A DNA stretch of 20,581 nt from the IMG/VR virus record IMGVR_UViG_3300021960_000664, positions 1-20,581 of that record, one strand, 5' to 3'. A program made the position numbers and the translations under genes. The notes beneath the pieces are model-generated. The model saw only the letters and a list, made by a program, of their open reading frames with translations. It was not told the origin of the DNA and ran no database searches. Below, in pieces: positions 11,388 to 17,543 of the stretch (position 1 is the first letter of the stretch; every line of letters starts with the position of its first letter). The stretch is from a virus.

Positions 11388-11975
11388 TTAGTACCTCGAA
11401 TTGATAAAAGAACTAGAATCTATATTATCGGCTGTACCTTCAGTTGCATCTACAAAACGTGCTTCTCGTAGTTTTTGATTATACAATTCATACATTTGAC
11501 CAGCTAATGATGTTGATGCGGTAATAGCATAACATAGTTCTGACGCTAATCTTGCTGCTATTGTTTCAATCAGTAATGTATCATATTCATTCGGATCAGT
11601 ATTTTTGAAAATGTATATTAAATAAATTGTTGTTTCATCCGTTAATAATTTTCTTCCTTCTATTTTAAATTTTTGTCCTGAATCTAAGTCAGAAGAAGAT
11701 CCATTATGATGACCTCCAACTTTTAAAACACGGATACAATCTGCTGGTAAAGTGTACTGATAATTATATTCATGTGTTGGCGTATCAGAATCGGCAGCTA
11801 ATTCTACTCGTTTAATTAAACAATTCCATGTATGTGAACGAAAAACAGAATCACGTACAGATTCATAACGCTGGTTAAGCAATCTAGCATTCTTACTATC
11901 TTCTGTAAGAGCTGTAATGTTATTTGCACCTAACATATTAAGAGATGAATTACATATTTCTACTACAGATGCCAT
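11388..11975 (-). CDS. Tail tubular protein A (adaptor), gp11-like
   Basis: At 195 residues it matches T7 gp11 (196), the dodecameric ring that joins portal to nozzle and gates DNA. The diagnostic pattern is an N-terminal helix ICNSSLNMLGANNITALTED (7-26), then NARLLNQRYESVRDSVFRSHTWNC (about 29-52), then YQYTLPADCIRVLKV (about 73-87). The C-terminal helices ETIAARLASELCYAITAS and MYELYNQKLREARFVDA complete it. The start codon overlaps the stop of the small basic gene upstream (TAATG), and the gene is followed immediately by the nozzle gene. Confidence 0.95.
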   Translation of the reverse strand: MASVVEICNSSLNMLGANNITALTEDSKNARLLNQRYESVRDSVFRSHTWNCLIKRVELAADSDTPTHEYNYQYTLPADCIRVLKVGGHHNGSSSDLDSGQKFKIEGRKLLTDETTIYLIYIFKNTDPNEYDTLLIETIAARLASELCYAITASTSLAGQMYELYNQKLREARFVDATEGTADNIDSSSFINSRY

Positions 11976-12247
11976 TATGTTTTCTTATTCCTATTTGCAA
12001 AATTTCTAGCTGATTCTACACTCCCAAAACCCCATGCTTTAAGTGCTAGTGCCTTTCTCGTTGGTCTACCTTTATCATCTTTCATTGGACCTTTCATTCC
12101 AGCAAAACGAGCAGCAAAAGAAACTCTCCTGGGATTAGTACCAGATTTTACTGGAGATTTTAAGTTAGATCCTTCTGTTCTTTTAAAATATCTTCTACCA
12201 GCAGCATTAAGTCCACCTTTTGGATTTTGATATTTTTTAGCAACCAT
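11975..12247 (-). CDS. Small basic phage protein (DUF6321-like)
   Basis: This encodes 90 residues, strongly basic and rich in Gly, Arg and Lys: NPKGGLNAAGRRYFKRTEGS near the start, then PRRVSFAARFAGMKGPMKDD and GRPTRKALALKAWGFGS. From memory this is the small family annotated DUF6321, frequent in marine and soil phages, whose members read GGL-N/S-x-x-G-R-x-x-x-K and R-x-S-F-x-x-R-x-x-G-x-x-G-P. Function is unknown. The charge and position between capsid and adaptor genes suggest a minor head or DNA-contact protein. It starts directly after the stop of the 42-residue gene and its stop overlaps the adaptor start. Confidence 0.85.
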   Translation of the reverse strand: MVAKKYQNPKGGLNAAGRRYFKRTEGSNLKSPVKSGTNPRRVSFAARFAGMKGPMKDDKGRPTRKALALKAWGFGSVESARNFANRNKKT

Positions 12248-12376
12248 TTATTTTTTCTTCTTTTTCATTGCTTTCTGAATAGCCATTGATCTTTTCTTTT
12301 CATATCCTGACATTTTTCCGTCTTTGTTTAAATCACCTTTTTTCATCATTTTCTTTTTTATCATTTTTCCTGGCAT
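12248..12376 (-). CDS. 42-residue lysine-rich protein with an EF-hand-like loop
   Basis: This is a very short gene: 42 codons, ATG at 12376, stop TAA ending at 12248, immediately before the ATG of the next gene (zero gap). The N-terminus is MPGKMIKKKMMKKG and the C-terminus is AIQKAMKKKKK. Between them, residues 15-26 read DLNKDGKMSGYE, a full match to the 12-position EF-hand calcium loop: D1, N3, D5, G6, hydrophobic at 8, S9, E12. The flanking helices are short and Lys/Met-rich, so it would be a single unpaired hand. Nineteen of 42 residues are lysine. Similar tiny Lys-rich proteins with a DxNxDG loop occur in other marine phages, from memory. Function is unknown; minor capsid or DNA contact are guesses. 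Confidence 0.8.
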   Translation of the reverse strand: MPGKMIKKKMMKKGDLNKDGKMSGYEKKRSMAIQKAMKKKKK

Positions 12377-12378
12377 AA

Positions 12379-12519
12379 TTAACCTTTCTTTTTCTTTTTT
12401 GGAAATCCAGCTTTCATATTTGCATAAGCCTTTGGTGTTATTGTTGATTTAGACTTAGGTCTTGACGTACCAGCTTTTTTTCTTGCGTTTATGTTTGCGT
12501 ATAATCCTTTTTTTGCCAT
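12379..12519 (-). CDS. 46-residue basic phage protein (MAKKGLYANI family)
   Basis: This encodes 46 codons from ATG 12519 to TAA ending at 12379. The protein starts MAKKGLYANINARKKAG and ends KAYANMKAGFPKKKKKG. The opening M-A-K-K-G-L-Y-A-N-I is a conserved hallmark of a small phage family found in many podoviruses and other tailed phages (recognised from memory), with a Lys/Arg/Ser/Thr-rich tail. The Shine-Dalgarno AAAGG lies 7 bases before the start, just after the hairpin at 12532-12557. Only two bases separate it from the 42-residue gene. Function is unknown. It forms a set of three basic small proteins with its two downstream neighbours. Confidence 0.85.
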   Translation of the reverse strand: MAKKGLYANINARKKAGTSRPKSKSTITPKAYANMKAGFPKKKKKG

Positions 12520-12567: not shown

Positions 12568-13017
12568 TTATTCAGTTGAATATACAACCCACATATAAAT
12601 TGTACCAGTAGCAGCAGCGCCACCAGTAGTAATTACAATGTCGGTTTCTGAAGTCACTCTATAACCTACGCCAGTTACCGCTGGTACTGGAGCGCCAGTT
12701 GAAGAACCAGCTAACATAGATTGAGATTGACCAGCTACGTTCCAAGTACCAACAACAGTTATATATCTGTCATCATCACCTGAATCGCCAACTTTTAATG
12801 TTACACCAGAACCCAATGCGTCACATTTTACAACAACGTCATGGATTGTAGCATAAGCTGGAATCTTTGCTAAAGTTATATCAGAACCTGAAGCTAGGGA
12901 AGATGCTTCGTATGTATCGTGAAATACTCTTAGCTTTCCTCCTACTTGCTCACTACTTGCTTTTACAACAGGAGTTGCAGTCAAGTTAGTGATATTTACA
13001 CCTTTTACACTTGCCAT
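12568..13017 (-). CDS. Small virion structural protein downstream of capsid (possible decoration protein)
   Basis: This encodes 149 residues, Gly/Ser/Thr/Val-rich and cysteine-poor, with no membrane or enzyme motif. Segments such as ITLAKIPAYATIHDVVVKCD, RYITVVGTWNVAGQS and GTIYMWVVYSTE at the C-terminus suggest a beta-sandwich. Proteins of this size and pattern directly after the capsid gene are common in marine podoviruses and are annotated as structural or hypothetical. A head decoration or head-fibre role fits but is inferred from position. It has the strongest ribosome site in the window, GGAGG eight bases before ATG, consistent with high-copy expression. Thirteen bases separate it from the capsid stop, and a hairpin follows. 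Confidence 0.8.
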   Translation of the reverse strand: MASVKGVNITNLTATPVVKASSEQVGGKLRVFHDTYEASSLASGSDITLAKIPAYATIHDVVVKCDALGSGVTLKVGDSGDDDRYITVVGTWNVAGQSQSMLAGSSTGAPVPAVTGVGYRVTSETDIVITTGGAAATGTIYMWVVYSTE

Positions 13018-13030
13018 TTTTTACCTCCTA

Positions 13031-13903
13031 TTATTCGTTACAAGGGATTTGAAATACTTTATCTTCTTCCATACGAGTCGCACCAACGCTCATGCAGTAG
13101 TAAACTTGTGTGCTGTATGATTTATCTGCTCTTTCGCTAATTTTAGCTTGAACATCTTTACCAACAGCAAGTTTAATTGCATCTTCAGTATAGGCAAAGC
13201 ACAGTCTATCGTCAGTATTTGTTGCATCAAAAGGTAATCTGTTTGATGTTACAAATTTAAAGCCTAAGAAAGTGTCAATTTCACCTTGTACTAAAGCTCG
13301 TACAGTATTAAAGTCAGCAGAAGTAATTGTTGAGTCACCTAACAAATCAGAAATTTGTTGAGCGCCACACACAATGTATCTTGCTAGACTTGGATCTACA
13401 TCATTCGCATCAAAGAATTTTTTAGCAGAACGTAGTTTTGCCAAAGTTAATCCATCTGTTTGGTTAGATGTAGCAAATTTAGAGCCTGATGGTAGAGCAA
13501 CCGAAGTTCCACCACTTACTCCTGTGTCAGCAGATGCATTAAATGCTGTAATAATTACATCATCCATGCTTCTACCCATAGCTGCCGCAGCAGCTTTAGC
13601 ATAAGAGCTTGTTGGATCAATAAGCATTCTGACTTTATCTGAATCGTCAATAAGGTCAGCCCACTCATAGTCATCCAAACTAACTCTTCTTCTGTCGTGA
13701 GGTGTGTCTATTTGCGGAGTATCACCATGTCTGCTTAGTTTTTTCTGAGCAGCAGTTACGCCAATTTGTTCAAAAAAAGCGTTTTTACCAGTAATAGTTT
13801 CCACATCAACAGTTCCTCTCAACTTTGAACCCATTTGTTGAGAAAGCATAGACACGTTACGGCTATACTGTTCTACAAATGCTGTAGTTATTTGATTAGA
13901 CAT
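13031..13903 (-). CDS. Major capsid protein
   Basis: This encodes 290 residues of HK97-fold type, forming the icosahedral shell. The N-terminal arm is FVEQYSRNVSMLSQQMGSKL (9-28). A charged loop follows, RHGDTPQIDTPHDRRRVSLD (58-77), then YEWADLIDDSDKVRMLIDP (79-97), AAAAAMGRSMDDVIITAF (104-121), VDPSLARYIVCG (169-180) and LGFKFVTSNRLPF (213-225). The order and the D-x-P-H-x-R-R-x-V/L-x-x-x-D-Y/W motif are those of the podoviral capsid family found with gp8-like portals. No T7-like slippery end (10A/10B) is visible; the gene closes with TAATAG. GGAG lies 7 bases before ATG. It is preceded by the second-longest gap in the window, which holds promoter-like and hairpin signals. Local GC is the highest seen here (25 of 60 bases at 13081-13140). 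Confidence 0.95.
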   Translation of the reverse strand: MSNQITTAFVEQYSRNVSMLSQQMGSKLRGTVDVETITGKNAFFEQIGVTAAQKKLSRHGDTPQIDTPHDRRRVSLDDYEWADLIDDSDKVRMLIDPTSSYAKAAAAAMGRSMDDVIITAFNASADTGVSGGTSVALPSGSKFATSNQTDGLTLAKLRSAKKFFDANDVDPSLARYIVCGAQQISDLLGDSTITSADFNTVRALVQGEIDTFLGFKFVTSNRLPFDATNTDDRLCFAYTEDAIKLAVGKDVQAKISERADKSYSTQVYYCMSVGATRMEEDKVFQIPCNE

Positions 13904-16672: not shown

Positions 16673-17320
16673 TTACTGTCCTAATGTTGTTTTTCTTCTA
16701 TTGTTACCCTTCATTCCTAATAATCCTAAAACTGTTCTATCACTTGTAAAGGGTTTACCTGATTGTTTTGCTTGAAACATTTTTGTATAATCTTCATATG
16801 CTGCTTCAGGTTGTGCAAAATCAGCAGCTGCTTTACCAGCCGCTATACGCATTGGAGCGCCTACGATTGTTGGAGCACCTATAGATGCAGCAGCAAATAT
16901 TAATGCTTTTGCTTTATTTTGTGATTTTAACATTTCACTAGAAATTTTTGTTGACGTTAATGCACCGCTTGGATCACCAGTACCCATTGCTGTACTTGTT
17001 CCACCAGCACCATATTTTAATCCAGCACCATATGATGTTAATATTGGTCTACCTGATGCTGTTTTAATAATATTACCAGATGAATCTTTCATTACTGCAC
17101 CTTCTACATTTTTTAACGACATATCAATAGCTTCTGCTACTTTACCACCATACATTTGATTACCAGCTGCTATTTGTTTTTGTTTTTCTTTTGCCGCTGC
17201 TGTTTTGACTTTAACCTTATTAACAACATTTTGTTGTTCTCTTCTATCTCTTTCACCGCCGCCGTAACTTCCACCGCCGCCGCCGCTACTTCTTCCACTT
17301 GTTGCTGTACTTGCACCCAT
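16673..17320 (-). CDS. Unrecognised 215-residue protein with Gly-rich start and LGQ tail
   Basis: The protein is in three parts. Residues 1-25 are Gly/Ser-rich and probably flexible (SSGGGGGSYGGGERDRR). Residues 26-135 are charged then Gly/Thr/Ser-rich. Residues 138-170 are Ala/Gly-rich and hydrophobic (ALIFAAASIGAPTIVGAPMR), possibly membrane-interacting. The C-terminus is LGLLGMKGNNRRKTTLGQ. Two motifs, ILTS at 93-96 and (K)TTLGQ at 211-215, recur in the 73-residue neighbour (ILTS at 52-55, KTLLGQ at the end), so the two may share ancestry or a binding partner. It lies between terminase and portal genes. The TTAGGACAG of its last codons is also the ribosome site of the portal gene. Function is unknown; a minor head or packaging-vestibule role is a guess. 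Confidence 0.8.
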   Translation of the reverse strand: MGASTATSGRSSGGGGGSYGGGERDRREQQNVVNKVKVKTAAAKEKQKQIAAGNQMYGGKVAEAIDMSLKNVEGAVMKDSSGNIIKTASGRPILTSYGAGLKYGAGGTSTAMGTGDPSGALTSTKISSEMLKSQNKAKALIFAAASIGAPTIVGAPMRIAAGKAAADFAQPEAAYEDYTKMFQAKQSGKPFTSDRTVLGLLGMKGNNRRKTTLGQ

Positions 17321-17321
17321 T

Positions 17322-17543
17322 TTATTGTCCTAACAATGTTTTCTTTGCTATTTCAGGTTCTGATTCATCCCCTGTTGTGCTTGTTAAAATTGTTTCTGTG
17401 TATCCTTTTTTCTTTAAACGTATTGCTTCTGCTATTTTTTTCTTCTTCTCTTCTGATAAATCTTCTCCTGTTGCTGGAGGAGGACTAGGAGGAGGGGGAG
17501 CTATTGGTGGTAATGGTGGAGCTTTTGGTCTTAAAAATCCCAT
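17322..17543 (-). CDS. 73-residue proline-rich small phage protein with ILTS / KTLLGQ tail
   Basis: Residues 5-24 are an extreme proline run (RPKAPPLPPIAPPPPSPPPA), followed by a basic helix SEEKKKKIAEAIRLKKKGYT (30-49), ILTS (52-55) and the end KKTLLGQ. Small phage proteins with a proline-rich start, an R/K helix, an ILTS-like motif and a K-T-L-L-G tail are widespread near portal genes in tailed phages (recognised from memory), always of unknown function. The gene starts one base after the terminase stop (TAGTATG), and its own last codons (TTAGGACAA) supply the ribosome site for the next gene. Confidence 0.82.
   Translation of the reverse strand: MGFLRPKAPPLPPIAPPPPSPPPATGEDLSEEKKKKIAEAIRLKKKGYTETILTSTTGDESEPEIAKKTLLGQ

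Follow-up and report, generated by a model that had tools for sequence, protein, structure and literature searches.

The DNA analysed here, referred to below as the window, is a virus record of 20.6 kb (IMGVR_UViG_3300021960_000664; 20,581 nucleotides). Judging by its genes it is a fragment of an HTVC010P-like marine podovirus, a SAR11-type phage, as it encodes a PF19821 capsid protein and has the HTVC010P-like terminase/portal/capsid/tail gene order. The gene under study, hereafter the EF gene, is located on the minus strand at 12248..12376, between two further tiny basic genes within the capsid-tail interval. On one side of it are the genes encoding the major capsid protein (13031..13903, PF19821), a probable head decoration or other virion structural protein (12568..13017, phrog_486) and YAN, a basic partner protein of 46 aa (KKGLYANINARKKAGTSRPKSKSTI..; 12379..12519, phrog_25774). 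On the other side are those encoding a second basic partner, the 90-aa DUF6321 protein (11975..12247; PF19846, E=4.2e-25), and tail tubular protein A (11388..11975, phrog_394), all likewise on the minus strand. An initial annotation had reported a 42-residue open reading frame at this position without giving its strand; the frame is indeed present, and the plus-strand frame over the same bases is interrupted by stops. Its start is preceded by a Shine-Dalgarno-like AAAGG (AAAGGTTAATTATG), and the stop-to-start gaps of 2 bases from YAN to the EF gene and 0 bases from the EF gene to DUF6321 make up a tight operon. That the reading frame is spurious was considered and rejected.

The encoded protein (MPGKMIKKKMMKKGDLNKDGKMSGYEKKRSMAIQKAMKKKKK) contains 16 Lys and 7 Met, with a pI of 10.5 and a net charge of about +13.5. 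It carries an EF-hand-type loop (residues 15-26, DLNKDGKMSGYE, 12299..12334, minus strand) and, in the AlphaFold2 model, an exit (F) helix (residues 24-41, 12254..12307, minus strand) with the conserved R-S-x-A-I-Q-K-A-M; one EF-hand-like loop plus exit helix is here called the EF-A module. The loop meets the 12-position EF pattern exactly as claimed, with D1, N3, D5, G6, a hydrophobic M8, S9 and E12. Shuffling the 42-aa protein gave a comparable loop in 3 out of 400,000 cases, and such a loop was absent from every other open frame of the window and from 60 dinucleotide shuffles of the window. A chance origin of the loop is excluded. The statement that every key position is satisfied holds for the 12 loop positions but not for the full PROSITE pattern PS00018, which demands a hydrophobic residue 13; this residue is a Lys in the window protein, which for that reason fails the pattern. 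The same pattern is matched by one out of 47 EF-A proteins, the other 46 failing because their residue 13 is not hydrophobic, and by all 26 proteins of the EF-B type described below. The window protein scored 15.5 bits (E=0.013) against Pfam EF-hand_1 (PF00036), short of the gathering cut-off of 25.4, and was unmatched by the dockerin model PF00404, against which an EF-A relative reached 16.8, below the gathering cut-off of 22.9. By itself the loop sequence is only suggestive, and conservation is therefore what decides.

The AlphaFold2 model, built with 19 sequences (mean pLDDT 74.7), predicts the loop followed by a confident exit helix, while the entry side has a pLDDT of 54-69 and no helix of at least four residues. 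A Foldseek search with this model matched nothing, EF-hands included, and a profile search of the PDB placed calpain EF-hands best and dockerins next, all weakly (E 0.08 or worse). A classical EF-hand has helices flanking both sides of the loop; a loop with one helix is termed 'EF-hand-like', and the form with only the exit helix 'loop-F', as in dockerin 1DAQ (PMC4022735). Because the entry helix is not confident, PS00018 failed and the PDB matches are weak, we class the modelled site as 'EF-hand-like, loop-F' and not as a classical EF-hand. With the latter (PF00036, PS00018) it shares the 12-residue loop D1-x-N3-x-D5-G6-x-M8-S9-x-x-E12 and the exit helix, but it differs in its single copy, its entry side, its residue 13 and its sub-cut-off Pfam score. 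Classical hands come in pairs, within one chain or across a dimer, and the 42-aa chain supplies one hand. Type I dockerins (PF00404) have the same arrangement of a loop and then an exit helix alone, but they possess two repeats and bind cohesins, whereas the window protein has one. The phage lysin LysGH15 likewise has a 12-residue EF-hand-like loop that is encoded by a phage and flanked by a single helix; its site is found inside the CHAP enzyme of a staphylococcal phage, where calcium has been shown to switch activity (PMC4022735), whereas the window protein is a 42-mer without an enzyme domain.

Relatives were gathered with the major capsid protein and tail tubular protein A of the window. 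For conservation, viral contigs were scanned with a DNA pattern that covers nothing but the exit helix (R-S-x-A-I-Q-K-A-M) and places no constraint on the loop; scans based on the loop, whose patterns include loop residues, would be circular and were not counted towards invariance. The helix-anchored scan revealed 57 matching stretches, 25 of which are unrelated readings of the degenerate helix pattern. The remaining 32 read R-S in frame and all of them keep D1, N/D3, D/N5, G6 and E12, though they do not amount to 32 independent trials since many are closely related and only four distinct loops occur. The expectation that the loop residues are kept in relatives is thereby borne out. In diverged homologues recovered by BLAST or the helix scan, the loops read DINDDGKLSEYE (CRP-3 gp36), DLNDDGSLSSYE (CRP-235 gp41), DLNEDGEVDAYE (CRP-738 gp39), DLDNNGILTDYE (CRP-212 gp38) and DLDDNGELSSYE (contig L423); their ligand positions swap among oxygen donors only, while positions 4, 7 and 10 vary. 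At the DNA level the loop has a pS of 0.77 and a pN of 0.085, giving a ratio of 0.11 against 0.40 in the helix, a contrast that is supportive only, as its sequences were partly chosen by loop patterns. The non-ligand residues L2, Y11, R15, A18 and I19 are as invariant as the ligands, so part of the conservation may serve the fold or a partner. Taken as a pattern of sequence, this supports the loop as truly of EF-hand type and as maintained by strong purifying selection, and it predicts that the loop likely works like an EF-hand in binding metal.

There are 47 distinct small proteins (40-116 aa) with the EF-A module, which also forms segments of larger proteins. Alignments and column counts of the 47 proteins give the consensus GDL[ND]KDGKMSxYExxRxxAIxxAM, which the window protein fits. 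Many marine phages that are unrelated to one another carry the module, either by itself or fused to larger proteins. The Pelagibacter phage HTVC041P (Stopavirus) encodes it as gp27 (..KRGDLNKDGKMSSYEAKRDKAIKNAI..), directly after the YAN gene gp26; in contrast to the window, the phage is T7-like and gp27, annotated only as a hypothetical protein, falls between its scaffold and capsid genes. In the Roseobacter phages, CRP-3 gp36, CRP-212 gp38, CRP-235 gp41 and CRP-738 gp39 retain the helix and every ligand position of the loop, but here the module is embedded, in acidic surroundings, in proteins of 377-1292 aa that are encoded near portal/coat genes. A cell-wall hydrolase domain (PF07486) is present as well in CRP-3 gp36, and a 410-aa protein of L423 starts with similar sequence. 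These two proteins (L423:6062-7294 and L319:1794-5672, the Pfam match being to CRP-3 gp36 only), encoded near portal or coat genes, combine a cell-wall-hydrolase N-terminus with EF-A, and share a conserved C-terminal motif, VRDDI..ML.(E/Q)GEYVLPADVVKWHGLKHI.

A tblastn search of phage records with the 42-mer returned no match, probably because of low-complexity masking, and less Lys-rich homologues succeeded as queries. Bacterial and archaeal genomes gave pattern matches, with no confirmed relative among them. The EF-hand literature on pelagiphages and cyanophages yielded nothing on the EF-A family, and no paper on DUF6321 was found.

A second mini-protein of EF/dockerin type, EF-B (LKGNQKKLDANKDGKISxxDFAMLR), occupies the same capsid-tail slot in relatives such as L125-L132. 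It scored 25.2 against PF00404, above the cut-off of 22.9, and a PDB search matched it at about 1e-4 to proteins that bind Ca. Ligands have been lost from some EF-B members (L137, DSNKDNKITKED; also DANNNNKIDAQD), some lacking D5 or G6. P-SCSP2 gp20 and HTVC023P gp53 are of the EF-B type; like the window protein they have a single EF/dockerin-type loop and belong to clusters of small basic genes, but theirs is a separate module, LKGNQKKxDxNKDGKIS..DF, in which position 12 is D and not E. The hhalign comparison of EF-A with EF-B aligned the loop region only (probability 34%), and since the similarity is confined to the loop, common ancestry is not claimed and convergence is possible. The initial annotation had called the hand lone and unusual: the 42-aa chain does hold one hand with a single loop, but dozens of such modules occur in marine phages, EF-B fills the same slot, and the idea of a lone EF-hand is rejected. 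Elsewhere among the relatives the slot is either empty or taken by small proteins that lack the ligands (LAALAGDKKKITAADLKKA), and ligand-less small helix-loop-helix proteins adjoin YAN in some other phages. The latter aligned to EF-B in hhalign with a probability of 36%; no profile alignment to EF-A was obtained. In L325 and L341 a third EF-type mini-protein (KKSFPDMSGDGKVTKKDILMARGVIKKGKKK, loop DMSGDGKVTKKD) is located directly upstream of YAN.

These findings bear on the view that the loop is a structural mimic, in which DxNxDG-S-x-x-E forms a rigid, metal-free asparagine/aspartate turn and helix N-cap, with S9 as the cap and E12 in the first turn; the peptide would then be a helical polycation and its EF resemblance a by-product. 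Non-ligand residues as invariant as the ligands, ligand-less proteins in the neighbouring slot elsewhere, the incomplete EF-B loops and the failed PS00018 and Pfam cut-offs are all consistent with this. A turn or cap, however, needs no joint D1, N/D3, D/N5 and E12, and neither the restriction of ligand exchange to oxygen donors, with 4, 7 and 10 free to vary, nor a separate EF/dockerin module in the same slot fits it well. We consider the mimic unlikely, and prefer a loop that binds metal.

Comparison with contig L002 bears on the need for the gene. Between L002 and the window the capsid and tail proteins are 99% identical and YAN, over its aligned part, 100%, but L002 lacks exactly the EF gene through an indel of 137 bases (12261..12397, minus strand, against L002:6384-6518). 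Both ends of the indel fall in A-rich runs of Lys codons, the tails of YAN and EF, and their positions are for that reason ambiguous by a few bases; YAN of L002 retains its Lys tail and stop. The EF gene is facultative and dispensable. Given where the indel ends, the Lys-codon tails may provide homology for the swapping of mini-genes. In L004 an extra mini-gene of 52 aa is inserted between EF and DUF6321 (L004:6654-6812), which makes this spot look like a place where small basic genes insert.

EF-A is tied to YAN, DUF6321 or other small basic genes in the window and in L175, L212 and HTVC041P: YAN and DUF6321 are both nearby in L175 and L212, as in the window, and EF-A adjoins YAN in HTVC041P (gp26-gp27). 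In L215 and L406 it is fused to YAN-type KKGLW domains. PHROG 11180 has one part that aligns to DUF6321 and another that aligns, weakly, to YAN, and is possibly a natural YAN-DUF6321 fusion. Members of this cassette are located either among head/tail genes or beside endolysin genes, so 'virion-cluster protein', as the product had been called, is a local description only: it is apt for the capsid-tail interval of the window but not for the lysis genes and other late regions where the cassette also occurs. YAN and DUF6321 are further encoded by the isolated HTVC010P-type phage HTVC204P (gp24 and gp26, L463), near a peptidase M15 (lysis) gene and not in the capsid-tail interval. A YAN homologue, gp59, is located just before the terminase gene of Syn5 (L402); the Syn5 capsid modelling paper does not mention gp59.

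This distribution could also point to a peptide that acts in the dying host instead of in virions, by nucleic-acid binding, host shut-off or a lysis-related role. A polycationic, facultative and often exchanged product would suit such an intracellular late factor, as would the endolysin genes that cassette members adjoin in L209, L197, L323, L349, L386 and HTVC204P. Set against this, the EF gene of the window, L212, HTVC041P, L175 and L225 has portal, scaffold, capsid and tail genes around it, and the CRP phages fuse the module into large proteins encoded beside the portal gene. We regard this explanation, too, as doubtful.

The reading that we favour, by a modest measure, is that the EF gene encodes a facultative, probably late, Lys-rich mini-protein, a metal-stapled loop-F peptide whose polycationic flanks act on a polyanion or acidic partner. 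Isolated EF loops bind metal weakly, in the millimolar range. The loop would accordingly be a weak site for one Ca2+ (or Mg2+). The bound ion would staple the loop and nucleate the amphipathic basic exit helix, and the strongly positive flanks would anchor the peptide, once folded, to phage DNA, to a virion protein or to another cassette member, presumably during late infection. We expect the metal to serve the fold, as a structural staple, and not to act as a signalling switch. Charge and neighbourhood are what suggest the polyanion or acidic-target half of this mechanism. The metal-stapled peptide is favoured by the outcome of the helix-anchored scan, the oxygen-donor exchanges, the loop and helix ratios, the AlphaFold2 model, the weak PDB matches, the EF-B protein in the same slot, the fusions to YAN-type domains, the cassette neighbourhoods and the charge. 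Speaking against it are the PS00018 and Pfam failures, the conservation of non-ligand residues, the positive flanks, which should weaken Ca2+ affinity, the EF-B ligand losses, the ligand-less neighbours of YAN and the absence of the gene from L002.

Seawater contains about 10 mM Ca2+ and about 50 mM Mg2+, and a calcium sensor had been suggested, its loop being empty in the cell and filled in seawater so as to switch a virion-located peptide. The loop is of the right type, isolated loops bind in the relevant range, and the EF gene is among head genes in the window and HTVC041P, but the virion location is putative, the cassette is also found beside lysis genes, a near-identical phage does without the gene and seawater Mg2+ would compete; we hold the sensor to be very improbable, and calcium sensing stated as fact is rejected. 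Least probable of all, and highly speculative, is that a kit of tiny polycationic virion peptides is exchanged among marine phages and that one of these is a folding switch triggered by millimolar Ca2+ (unfolded during assembly in the cell, folded in seawater, locking DNA or capsid until ejection), the genes being swapped as cassettes via their own lysine-codon tails.

The EF-hand-like site of EF-A falls outside the existing families of PHROGs and NCBIfam, and of Pfam above cut-off, yet it is spread over unrelated marine phages including SAR11 phages. With the conservation test, what began as a sighted motif becomes a well-defined problem for biochemistry: whether the 42-mer binds divalent metal at the millimolar levels of seawater and whether it is part of the virion. 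EF-A also draws attention to small basic genes that marine phages exchange and that have been neglected.

Single genomes were also observed to encode two or three small basic proteins that belong to different families and share the C-terminal end K(K/R/N)T(M/L)(V/I)G-stop, for example ...KKKKKTMIG, ...KKKTMIG and ...NRKTMIG in L134/L135. At least two open reading frames with this end are present in 27 loci, and those in the capsid-tail tubular interval include L026, L027, L038, L039, L041, L074, L125, L126, L128, L133-L138, L140, L141 and L147. The shared end looks like a docking, packaging or processing tag. Two proteins encoded in the terminase-portal interval of the window, at 17322-17543 (minus strand, matching phrog_831) and 16673-17320 (minus strand), end in ...IAKKTLLGQ and ...RRKTTLGQ, respectively, and may be further members of this tag family; proteins of similar appearance in L078 have KKTLLG as their end.
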